A DNA stretch of 64,000 nucleotides, taken from NCBI GenBank assembly GCA_944389025.1, contig CALXKU010000006.1, positions 1-64,000 of the forward strand, written 5' to 3'. The notes beneath the pieces were generated by a model that was not told the DNA's origin, did no database searches, and saw only the letters and a list, made by a program, of their open reading frames with translations. Position 1 is the first letter of the stretch; every line of letters begins with the position of its first letter. Origin of the DNA: an uncultured Spirochaetaceae bacterium. Lineage in GTDB: Bacteria; Spirochaetota; Spirochaetia; Sphaerochaetales; Sphaerochaetaceae. This document shows, piece after piece, positions 8,312 to 48,534 of this stretch. The position numbers and the translations under genes are program-made.

Positions 8312-8383
8312 GGAGGATTAGCTCAGCGGGAGAGCGCCTGCCTTACAAGCAGGATGTCACAAGTTCAATCCTTGTATCCTCCA
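8312..8383 (+). tRNA. tRNA-Val (anticodon TAC)
   Basis: A complete 72-base cloverleaf: acceptor GGAGGAT/ATCCTCC, D-arm GCTC/GAGC, anticodon stem CCTGC/GCAGG with loop CTTACAA (anticodon TAC, reads GTA), T-arm ACAAG/CTTGT with loop TTCAATC, discriminator A. The terminal CCA is not encoded. Spacing of the arms is standard. Confidence 0.95.
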
Positions 8384-12358: not shown

Positions 12359-13264
12359 ATGATAGCTCAGATCAGGCGCAGCATTAACAACACCTATGAG
12401 GCTTTCTGCGAGGATGGGAGGCCATATCGTCTAAAGATCAAGGGGAAGGTTCTCAGCGTACCACGCTGGGAATATAATCCGATTGCGGTAGGCGACTATG
12501 TTGAATTCTGCCCCCATAGTGATTCTGAGGGGCTCATAACCGGCAGACTTGAAAGGAAAAGTAGTTTCACACGCTTTTTGAACAAGGTCTCCCTCAATCA
12601 GACGATTGCAGTCAACATGGATCAGGCTCTCATCGTTTCATCAGTAAAATCTCCTGCATTCCATCCCCGTTTCATAGACAGGGCGATCGCATCCCTCTCC
12701 GGTTGCGATATCATGATAGCTATTAATAAGACGGATCTTGGAATGGATGAGGAGGAAAGGGAGGTAGAGCTTTATGAGAGCCTTGGATATAAGACTTTGC
12801 TTATCAGTGTTAAGCAAGGGGATATCAGCGCTCTTCTTCCACTTCTTAAAGGAAAACTTACTGCGCTCATCGGGCCTAGCGGTGTTGGAAAGTCAAGTCT
12901 TGTAAATCTCATTACAGGCTCATCTCAGAGGGTGGGGGATATCAGTGACAAGTACAACAGGGGCAAACATACTACAAATCATGCGCTCTTTCTTGAAAAA
13001 GATGATATCAGGCTCATCGATACTCCGGGAATCAGGGAGATAATCCCTCCTCTTGAAGAGCCTGTCATGCTGCGTGATGCTTTTCCTGAGCTCAGGGCGA
13101 TTGATTGCAGGTATTCTAACTGCCTTCATGATGGGGAGGAAGGGTGCCTTGTTTCATCCCTCGTCGAATCTGGTGTGATTGATGAAGGTAGATATGAGGG
13201 CTATCTTTCGATGCTCCATGATTTGAGAGGCATCCACGAGAGGATGATCAGAAATAAATGGTAA
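12359..13264 (+). CDS. rsgA: ribosome small-subunit-dependent GTPase A
   Basis: 301 residues; a circularly permuted GTPase that helps late 30S maturation. N-terminal OB fold (residues 1-70), then the permuted motifs G4 AINKTDL, G5 LISVKQG, G1 GPSGVGKSS, a TTNHALF switch and G3 DTPGIRE. The C-terminal zinc-binding region has CRYSNCLHDGEEGC. The mRNA is predicted leaderless because a TAATAT -10 ends six bases before ATG. The last seven bases overlap mutS2. Confidence 0.92.
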   Translation: MIAQIRRSINNTYEAFCEDGRPYRLKIKGKVLSVPRWEYNPIAVGDYVEFCPHSDSEGLITGRLERKSSFTRFLNKVSLNQTIAVNMDQALIVSSVKSPAFHPRFIDRAIASLSGCDIMIAINKTDLGMDEEEREVELYESLGYKTLLISVKQGDISALLPLLKGKLTALIGPSGVGKSSLVNLITGSSQRVGDISDKYNRGKHTTNHALFLEKDDIRLIDTPGIREIIPPLEEPVMLRDAFPELRAIDCRYSNCLHDGEEGCLVSSLVESGVIDEGRYEGYLSMLHDLRGIHERMIRNKW

Positions 13265-15546
13265 GTGAGAATAAGAAAGGATTTGAGGATATTGAGCTTG
13301 ATCTCGTGCTTGAGATGGTGCGCCGCTATTCTCTTTTTTCTGAAAGCGGGGAGTATATAAACTCCGATGCGTTTACATGTGATGAGAATCTTCTCTCATC
13401 AAGGTATGAGAAAATAGATTCCTACATGGCATTGCTCTCTGGAGAGAGGGATCTGGATCACTTTCCTTCAATTGCCCATGTTTTTCAGTTCGTAAGCAAA
13501 AGCCATCAGGATATCGATAGCCGTGATGTATATCTTATTGGGGAATTCATCGCCTCATATGTGAAGATGATGATCTTCCTTGGCAGGGAGGATGATGCGG
13601 ATGATGCTCTCTTAGCTCTCAGGGATGATATCCTCTCATCACTGGATATGGAGGGAAATGTTTTTGAGGATCATAAGAGACTCATACCGCTAAGAAGAAA
13701 TCTTGAGAGCGCTAAGGCGAGAAGACAGAGTTATGCTTTCTCGTTCATGAGGGACAATCAGGCTCTCATCCAGGGAGATAACCCTTTATTCAGGAATCAG
13801 AGAATCGTTATTCCCGTGAAAGCTGCGGAGAAAAGCAGAATCAGCGGATATCTTCAGGGCTCCTCCTCATCTGGACAGACACTCTATATGGAACCACTTG
13901 AGCTTATCTCATACAACAACGATGTCGTTCTTGCCGAGGAGAGAATCAAGGATGAGATAAGAGAGATAAAGCATGAGCTTGCAAATAGGACAAGAGAAAG
14001 GATTTGGGATATTAAGAGGATGAGAGATGAGGCGATGGATTTCGATTTTCATTACTCATTCGCGCTCTGGAATACCAAAGTCGGTGCAAAGCATATCAGG
14101 CGTGCGAACAGGATACGATTGATAGATGCGTCGCACCCGCTTTTAAAAAAAGCTGTTCCAATTTCAATCCGAATTGATGAGAACATTAAATGCGTGGTCT
14201 TTTCCGGTGCTAATGCCGGAGGAAAGACGGTCACCATGAAGACTATAGCACTCTTTGCAGCTCTTAATCAGATATCTACATTCATACCTGCAAAGGAAGA
14301 ATCGGAGCTTCCCTTGTTCTCCTCGATTCTCACGGATATCGGGGACGGACAGAGCATACTCTCGGATGAGTCGACATTCTCATCACACCTTGCGAATATA
14401 GCTCGGATAATAAGAACGACGGATGAAAAAAGCCTTATTCTCCTTGATGAGCTTGGAAGCGGGACCGATCCTGAGGAGGGCTCAGCTCTTGCCCTCTCCG
14501 TACTTGATTATCTAAAAGACAGGGCACGGCTGACACTCTCTTCCTCACATTATTCACGTGTGAAAACGCATGCATACACATCGGATGGTATGATGAATGC
14601 ATCAATGGCATTCAGTGATGATACGGGAATGCCACTATACAAGGTCATAGAGAACATTCCAGGGGACAGCCACGCAATCGATGCTGCAAAGAGAATGAGG
14701 CTGCCAAAGGAGATAACAGACAATGCGAGACTGATCCTTTCTGACCGCAATGAGAGTGCGGCATCCCTCATTTCATCACTTATCAAGAAGAGTAGGACGC
14801 TCGATAGGAAAATCTCCGATGCTGAGAGAATGAGGAGAGAGGCAGAGAAAAGGGAGAGTGAACTTGAAGCAGAGCTGGAGAAGGAGAGGCGAAAGGTTCA
14901 TGAGCTTGAAAAGAGCGGTTTGAGTGATATCAGCACATTTTTAAGGGATGCAAGAAAAACACTTGAGAATCTCATAAGCGATATACAGACTGGAAAGCTC
15001 GATAAGGCAAAGATCAAAAAAGCTAAGGATTTCATGCAGAACGTTCAGAGAAAGGAAGCAGATGTCAGATCTCGTGTAGCTAAGAGCGAAGAGGAGGAAG
15101 AGGAGGATATGACCTTCAATCCTGGAGAGAGCGTGCTTTGTGGTAAGAGCCGTATAAAAGGCCAGATCCTGGAAAAGAGCGGAAAAAGCTACCTTGTTCT
15201 CCTTTCAAGTGGCCTCAAGCTAAGGCTTAAAGCCGCGGATCTTGAGAGTTTTGATCAAAAGAAGGAGATAAGCCTCCCATCTTTTTCAAAATCAAGCAGA
15301 AAGGCCGAATACGAGATGGATATCAGAGGTCTGAGCGGGGATATGGCCATTGAACGTCTTGAGGACCAGATGGAGGCTGCAATTCTCTCTTCTCTTAAAA
15401 GCTTTTCCATCATACATGGTCTTGGGGACGGTATTCTCATGCACCGCGTGCACGACTACCTGAAAACGAGAAGCGAAGTGGAATCATACTATTTCGCCAG
15501 ACCGGAGGATGGAGGCATGGGTAAGACGTATGTCAAACTCCGCTAG
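13258..15546 (+). CDS. mutS2: MutS2 family ATPase with Smr domain
   Basis: 762 residues. It has a MutS core and clamp region, Walker A GANAGGKTVTMKT near residue 320, and Walker B LILLDELGSGTDPEEG with signature STFSSHLANI just before. A long charged coiled coil follows (about residues 500-620), then a C-terminal Smr nuclease-type domain with DIRGLSGDMAIERLE and HGLGDG. No mismatch-recognition domain I, as expected for MutS2. Family roles include suppression of recombination or rescue of collided ribosomes by Smr activity. Overlaps rsgA by seven bases. Confidence 0.92.
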   Translation: MVSENKKGFEDIELDLVLEMVRRYSLFSESGEYINSDAFTCDENLLSSRYEKIDSYMALLSGERDLDHFPSIAHVFQFVSKSHQDIDSRDVYLIGEFIASYVKMMIFLGREDDADDALLALRDDILSSLDMEGNVFEDHKRLIPLRRNLESAKARRQSYAFSFMRDNQALIQGDNPLFRNQRIVIPVKAAEKSRISGYLQGSSSSGQTLYMEPLELISYNNDVVLAEERIKDEIREIKHELANRTRERIWDIKRMRDEAMDFDFHYSFALWNTKVGAKHIRRANRIRLIDASHPLLKKAVPISIRIDENIKCVVFSGANAGGKTVTMKTIALFAALNQISTFIPAKEESELPLFSSILTDIGDGQSILSDESTFSSHLANIARIIRTTDEKSLILLDELGSGTDPEEGSALALSVLDYLKDRARLTLSSSHYSRVKTHAYTSDGMMNASMAFSDDTGMPLYKVIENIPGDSHAIDAAKRMRLPKEITDNARLILSDRNESAASLISSLIKKSRTLDRKISDAERMRREAEKRESELEAELEKERRKVHELEKSGLSDISTFLRDARKTLENLISDIQTGKLDKAKIKKAKDFMQNVQRKEADVRSRVAKSEEEEEEDMTFNPGESVLCGKSRIKGQILEKSGKSYLVLLSSGLKLRLKAADLESFDQKKEISLPSFSKSSRKAEYEMDIRGLSGDMAIERLEDQMEAAILSSLKSFSIIHGLGDGILMHRVHDYLKTRSEVESYYFARPEDGGMGKTYVKLR

Positions 15547-15557
15547 GAAAATTTTTC

Positions 15558-15588
15558 TTTACAAAATCCGAAAACCATGCGATAAAAT
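15558..15588 (+). promoter_or_regulatory. promoter of the udp leader
   Basis: -35 TTTACA followed after 17-19 bases by GATAAA/TAAAAT as -10. The start site would be near 15594, where the leader helix begins. Confidence 0.5.
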
Positions 15589-15592
15589 AACT

Positions 15593-15787
15593 AGATAGGA
15601 AAAGGAAATCCGCTTTCAGGGACTGGCTGGAAAGAAAAACGCCAGAAAAGAACAATCCTTTGAAGATAACCTGTATGAGTAATAGACAGGAAAAGAAAAG
15701 TACATCCTATCTTATCAGGCTTAGTATTAAGCCATGAGAGCAGAGGAGAAGCTCGGAGAGCTAATAAAAACTCCTCTGTTTTTTTAT
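15593..15787 (+). ncRNA. structured 5' leader with intrinsic terminator (candidate riboswitch or attenuator, class unknown)
   Basis: About 190 bases between promoter and udp. A closing helix AGATAGGA/TCCTATCT (15593-15600 with 15705-15712) encloses a multibranch fold: AAAGGA/TCCTTT, inside it CTGGC/GCCAG, and a separate hairpin CCTGT/ACAGG. Downstream lie hairpin GGCTTA/TAAGCC (about 15718-15733) and a terminator CAGAGGAG/CTCCTCTG (15741-15778) with seven Ts ending about 20 bases before the start codon. The placement implies transcription control of udp. The sequence does not match consensus cores of purine, TPP, FMN, lysine, glycine, ZTP, ykkC or cobalamin riboswitches that I could check by eye. 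Confidence 0.6.
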
Positions 15788-15804
15788 GTTCTTAGGAGTT
15801 GTTT

Positions 15805-16587
15805 ATGTCAGATTATATGAATGGAACCGGTATACAGTATCACCTTCACGTAAAAAAGGGGGACGTCGGACGTTATGTCATCCTCCCGGGAGATCCAAAG
15901 AGGGTTGCATTGATTGCAAAGTATCTTGATGATGCGAAGATGATTGCGGATAGCAGGGAGTTTATCACCTATACAGGCACACTTCTTGGAGAGAAGGTCA
16001 GCGTTACAAGCACCGGTATCGGTGGTCCAAGTGCCGCTATCGCGGTTGAAGAGCTTTTCAAGGTCGGAGCCGATACGTTCATCCGCATGGGGACGTGTGG
16101 CGGAATCAAGCTTTCAGTCATGGGAGGGGATGTGGTAATCGCAACAGGTGCCGTCAGGGCCGAGGGAACAAGCAGGGAGTATGCTCCGATTGAGTTCCCT
16201 GCGGTTGCGGATTTCTCCGTAGTTGACGCCATGAGAAAAGCGGCTAAGAAGCTTGGTCTTAAAAGTCATACGGGTATTGTGCAGTGCAAGGATAGTTTTT
16301 ATGGACAGCATGAGCCGGAGCTTATGCCTGTCAGTTACGATCTTATGAATAAATGGGAAGCCTGGAAGAAGCTGGGCGTGCTATGCAGCGAGATGGAGAG
16401 CTCTACGATCTTCACTGTCGCCTCATATCTTGGAGCCAGAGCCGGTTCCCTTTTCTTCGTAGTCGGTAACCAGGAGAGGGAGAAGCTCGGAATGGATAAT
16501 CCGAAATATCATGATACTGATAGTGCGATCCGCCTCGCAGTCGAGTCTGTAAAGGAGCTGATTATCTCTGATAGAGCTCTTTCTTAA
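15805..16587 (+). CDS. udp: uridine phosphorylase (nucleoside phosphorylase family)
   Basis: 260 residues. Catalyses phosphorolysis of uridine to uracil and ribose 1-phosphate for pyrimidine salvage. Motifs: [14 protein letters not shown] (phosphate binding), [38 protein letters not shown] and the ribose-binding [13 protein letters not shown]. The ATG at 15805 has AGGAG seven bases upstream; the TTG at 15799 is not needed. It lies behind a terminator-bearing leader. Substrate choice between uridine and related nucleosides is inferred from the QxxxxY/R-type uridine phosphorylase motifs. Confidence 0.88.
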
Positions 16588-48164: not shown

Positions 48165-48531
48165 GGGGGTGTTTTGGTTTCGACTTGCTTTACCAGGTCG
48201 GAGACTGCGGGCCAAGAGCTGACTTGTAAAACCGGCACAAAAAAATAACTGCAAAGAAAGAAGAAGACGACAACGTCGAAACTCTTGCATTTGCTGCTTA
48301 ATTAAACGCAGCATGGCTTCTCCTGACACAGCTCTGAGGCTGGAAGAGGTCAACACAAACCAGGGCTTTCCTTACTGGGTGCACTCACCATTAAGGGAGA
48401 TCAAGTGGGTGCTACCTGCTCTCAACGCTGGTAATGCGGCCTAAAGGGTAGGGAAATCAGAAGCATTACTACGCTCCGTAGATGTTTTCGGATGGACTGT
48501 TAGGACGGGAGTTCGAGTCTCCCCACCTCCA
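48165..48531 (+). ncRNA. ssrA: transfer-messenger RNA
   Basis: 367 bases. 5' GGGGGTGTTTTGGTTTCGAC and 3' GACGGGAGTTCGAGTCTCCC-CACCTCCA form the tRNA-like domain: acceptor GGGGGTG pairs with CACCTCC (one G-T), T-arm loop TTCGAGT. The tag reading frame runs 48251-48301 and encodes AKKEEDDNVETLAFAA before TAA, ending in the hydrophobic Ala-Ala expected for ClpXP/FtsH-type degradation. Pseudoknot pairs follow. CCA is not fully encoded. Rescues stalled ribosomes together with SmpB, encoded nearby on the other strand. Confidence 0.95.
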
Positions 48532-48534
48532 GAG

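Follow-up and report, generated by a model that had tools for sequence, protein, structure and literature searches.

Transcription-terminating metabolite riboswitches, e.g. the purine riboswitch with its three-way junction, place close to the promoter a junction that is closed by a helix P1 and bears a variable arm. They combine invariant junction and loop bases with an intrinsic terminator that immediately precedes a metabolic gene. The leader described here, which precedes the uridine phosphorylase gene (udp) of a spirochaete, shares all these traits. Yet it differs from the known metabolite riboswitches in that it matches no Rfam 15 family, is limited to a single gene in five species, and has a candidate antiterminator. 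PyrR-regulated attenuators of pyr genes also resemble it, as they have a terminator before a pyrimidine gene and a conserved hairpin upstream. But these attenuators use a single binding hairpin, whereas the udp leader is a three-way junction lacking an exact PyrR consensus. We know of no established natural riboswitch for pyrimidine nucleosides, and the titles and abstracts of the open-licence literature revealed no publication linking uridine phosphorylase to a riboswitch.

Orphan candidates provide a third comparison. The yjdF motif was such a riboswitch candidate, put forward by comparative genomics before its ligands were found (PMC4793209). The udp leader is likewise a conserved structure with a fixed gene association that is described ahead of its signal, but its distribution is far narrower than that of such candidates. 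As a consequence, its covariation is weaker and, since it occurs before one gene in only five species, no second target gene hints at a ligand. Our preferred reading, which we hold with somewhat better than even confidence, is that the leader acts in cis to attenuate transcription of udp and most probably represents an orphan riboswitch of this clade. Among catalogued orphan RNA motifs, it makes a solid but narrow entry.

Architecture of the leader

The window, i.e. the whole stretch of 64,000 nucleotides that we analysed, belongs to a 2.3 Mb spirochaete genome (G000). The features of interest are:

13258 to 15546: mutS2, the upstream neighbour of the leader
15558 to 15586, + strand: likely sigma-70-type promoter (TTTACA, 17-base spacer, TGC-GATAAA), read from the sequence
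15593 to 15712, + strand: junction domain (candidate aptamer) of 120 bases, closed by P1; from the fold and the covariance model
15593/15594 to 15600 with 15705 to 15711/15712, + strand: closing helix P1, AGAUAGGA/UCCUAUCU; from the fold, invariant in five species
15613 to 15665, + strand: arm P2, made of P2a (15613-15622 with 15656-15665) and P2b (15623-15627 with 15641-15645)
15670 to 15690, + strand: arm P3 (15670-15674 with 15686-15690), with an 11-base loop and an invariant core
15691 to 15711, + strand: junction strand J3/1 and the invariant GUACAUCCUAUC; from the alignment of species
15718 to 15733, + strand: hairpin P4, GGCUUA/UAAGCC; from the fold
15735 to 15785, + strand: intrinsic terminator, with core GCAGAGGAG/CUCCUCUG and a U-run at 15779-15785; from the fold
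15805 to 16587, + strand: udp, uridine phosphorylase (TIGR01718, 325.7 bits against a cut-off of 280.3)

The original prediction, made from the letters of the window, had described a promoter, an eight-pair closing helix around a multibranch fold, and a terminator shortly before the gene, in a leader showing none of the common riboswitch classes. This description holds well. The gap of about 258 bases between mutS2 and udp houses the promoter, the junction, P4 and the terminator, with the structured leader itself at 15593-15785. The promoter boxes (TTTACA at 15558-15563 and GATAAA at 15581-15586, the latter preceded by an extended TGC) are nearly invariant in five species, all of which retain CTTTACAA and CATGCGATAAA, and the consensus promoter scan of the window did not report them. 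Transcription is predicted to start around 15592-15594, i.e. at the first base of P1. This helix, which encloses P2 and P3, has eight pairs in the window (15593-15600 with 15705-15712) and seven in three relatives. The asymmetric loop of P2 is AAAAGAACAA.

The U-run ends 19 bases from the udp start in the window, and 18-19 bases from it in all five species, taking as start the ATG at 15805, which we prefer over the TTG at 15799. Inspection of the sequence between the terminator and udp revealed no apparent promoter. Given this short gap and this lack of a second promoter, transcription of udp from the leader promoter must cross the terminator. A simple terminator scan of the window missed this terminator, probably because its loop exceeds the 8-base limit of the scan. 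We also noticed that the 3' arm of the terminator (AACUCCU) is complementary to the region of the udp ribosome-binding site (AGGAGUU; 15771-15798), with seven pairs in the window and in G067 and four to five, counted by eye, in the other species. Judging from these letters, a read-through transcript could mask the udp start if the terminator hairpin fails to refold.

The predicted folding energy of the full leader is -55.1 kcal/mol, compared with -38.3 +/- 4.2 for shuffled sequences (z -4.0), and none of 200 shuffles was as good. On its own, the 119-base junction stands out less in the window (z -2.5, with 8 of 500 shuffles as good) and the terminator tail reaches z -4.7, so that the tail supplies much of the whole-leader score there. 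The junction scores are stronger in four relatives (z -3.0 to -4.3) than in the window. The tail ranges from z -3.2 to -4.7 over the species.

The leader had no match at gathering threshold among the 4227 families of Rfam 15. A permissive search of the leader (E up to 10) gave matches at chance level only, and the junction of the four relatives matched no Rfam 15 family at E up to 1. Within the whole window, only a tmRNA (48165-48534) and a tRNA (8312-8383) reach the gathering threshold of an Rfam family.

Conservation and covariation

The helices of the original prediction recur in homologous leaders upstream of udp in the five species, and P2 covaries among them. In the alignment of the junction, 57 of 120 columns are invariant, among them the whole of P1 and the greater part of P3, along with the P3 loop (AUGAGUAAUA) and the 12-mer GUACAUCCUAUC. 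The latter is unchanged among species in which the length of the J3/1 linker differs. The closing pair of P3 alternates between U-A and U-G, and the terminator has identical core arms and a U-run in all five species. The four-fold degenerate sites of udp differ by 54-74% between pairs of these species, and only 1 of 89 is unchanged in all five. The conservation of the junction, set against the divergence at these sites, argues that the RNA is under selection.

Eight pairs of P2 show compensatory double changes among the five sequences, a number reached by 5 of 500 shuffles. Pairing in P2 is kept in 99.2% of the cells, and this falls to 31-48% once the partner strand is slid. The five-sequence alignment of P2 was fitted to the model, but P2 looks the same in a MAFFT alignment of four sequences. 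The leader shows one general trait of riboswitches: a metabolic gene is preceded, in its 5' leader, by a structured domain that is conserved and covaries. Covariation is confined to P2: there are no changes in P1 or the terminator core and hardly any in P3, so that these elements gain next to nothing from covariation. The prediction of P1 and P3 thus rests on conservation and folding.

In G010 (L066:1501-1606) the leader retains P1, P3 and the core, but its P2 arm and P4 are wholly different: P4 is swapped for another hairpin, UUAGGCCA/UUGGCCUGA, at the same position, and the AAAGAACAA and GGAAAG loops of the other four species are missing. In these four species J1/2 (UCCG) could contact the P2b loop (YGGA) through four pairs, of which a single one varies, and on one side only; G010 lacks both partners.

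Distribution

The gene udp is present in 46 of the 48 genomes of the genus. The leader was found in five of these 48 species (G000, G017, G067, G071 and G010), once per genome and always before udp. Naturally, this census must be read with the state of the genomes in mind, since many are incomplete and contig ends cut some udp flanks: upstream regions were oriented and read only where the flank sufficed. A core sequence pattern finds the same five species among 395 genomes of the class. Applied to a collection of about 85,000 species, the pattern picks out four contigs, of Candidatus Ornithospirochaeta stercorigallinarum, two uncultured Spirochaetaceae and an uncultured Spirochaetales, the window's own record being possibly left out there. 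The carriers fall in one genus (Candidatus Ornithospirochaeta and relatives).

A covariance model built from four sequences recovers the fifth leader (E 1e-9), with no other credible match in the genus or in 139 genomes of the family. The five-sequence model added nothing credible in the 395-genome class sample, and viral contigs had no leader match. Weak matches elsewhere in the genus were dropped, as by eye they resemble protein-coding sequence. A class-level match in G275 (E 2.8e-4) falls within a folD-like frame, and no leader surrounds either of two short DNA matches (L004, L005). The udp proteins of the five leader species form one clade (support 100/99), and therefore a single origin of the leader would be the simplest history. 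The majority of the remaining species in the genus carry a udp that lacks the leader, and control by the leader is therefore dispensable.

A tentative mechanism

The original prediction took the layout for that of a transcriptional riboswitch. The layout stands (promoter, closed fold, terminator, gene); a specific mechanism is not supported, as the antiterminator does no better than a composition control. In the mechanism that we envisage, transcription would begin where P1 begins, and the junction of P1, P2 and P3 would be the first part to fold. If P1 were maintained, the terminator would form and udp would not be transcribed. A signal weakening P1, or the absence of a ligand stabilising it, would free its 3' strand (UCCUAUC), which, by pairing with the terminator's purine arm, might then let transcription read through. 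When folding is computed at successive lengths, P1 stays the main state at each of them (mean pair probability 0.53-0.99), hence the default would be termination. When the 5' strand of P1 is masked, UCCU in its 3' strand pairs with AGGA in the terminator arm in all five species (0.58-0.86). We compared this strand with the 139 remaining permutations of its seven bases: on average, 59 of them pair equally well, and 22 do so when judged by the weakest species. We therefore give this pairing no weight as evidence, since the pyrimidine-purine composition explains it, and keep it as a candidate alternative structure.

We infer that the leader switches, in which direction it does so, and that its signal is a small molecule. 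A pyrimidine nucleoside, uracil or ribose-1-phosphate as ligand is a guess, based solely on the neighbouring udp. The nucleoside or ribose phosphate ligand of the original prediction (PRPP included) is not supported either, as the same neighbour alone ties it to a leader present before one gene per genome in five species. We regard as tentative, and on balance doubtful, the narrower proposal of a new riboswitch class with one origin in one spirochaete genus, which would sense a pyrimidine or ribose compound such as uridine and control the breakdown of pyrimidine nucleosides. If the leader is a riboswitch, its class is absent from Rfam and limited to a small clade. It would then show that aptamers can arise and become fixed locally for one salvage gene, and would offer a single-gene test of pyrimidine nucleoside sensing by RNA in bacteria.

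Other explanations

The invariant loop AUGAGUAAUA sits in a short stable hairpin, P3, and udp is a pyrimidine salvage gene. Hence, one might speculate that an RNA-binding regulator reads this loop and the junction and decides on termination in the manner of PyrR. We find this unlikely. The PyrR consensus ARUCCNGNGAGGYU, searched by exact matching, is absent from all five leaders, and the conserved region is a whole three-way junction, whereas the site bound by a protein is usually smaller. Were the leader protein-bound, it would flag a nucleoside salvage regulator of gut spirochaetes that has yet to be described.

With its promoter, closed fold and strong terminator, the leader is also complete in itself over about 193 bases, and its default folding favours termination, as expected of an independent small RNA lying before udp by chance. 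But the genomes hold no further copy, udp has no apparent promoter of its own after the terminator, and in G067, where an aminotransferase-like reading frame replaces mutS2 upstream, leader and udp are still together. An independent small RNA is thus decidedly unlikely.

A constitutive partial terminator in a structured but unregulated leader, serving RNA stability or expression tuning, would fit a minimum-energy fold that contains both P1 and the terminator and an antiterminator no better than chance, but it is very improbable, as the invariant single-stranded bases of junction and loop are hard to explain unless something recognises them.

Equally improbable is a leader-peptide attenuator, in which a conserved AUG AGU AAU in P3 would open a short frame (MSN[R/K]QE...). 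All five species preserve the AUG and, apart from synonymous or conservative changes, the six codons at the beginning of this frame. But length differences after P3 break it, so that it does not amount to a conserved short frame with regulatory codons, and shift the invariant GUACAUCCUAUC among frames; the peptides diverge between species and there is no good ribosome-binding site. RNA structure, not a peptide, appears to be under selection, and an orphan riboswitch remains our preferred reading. In G067 (L077:2904-3806) the frame opened by the AUG of the P3 loop runs without a stop through the terminator into udp, over 300 aa, unlike in the window, where it stops early.
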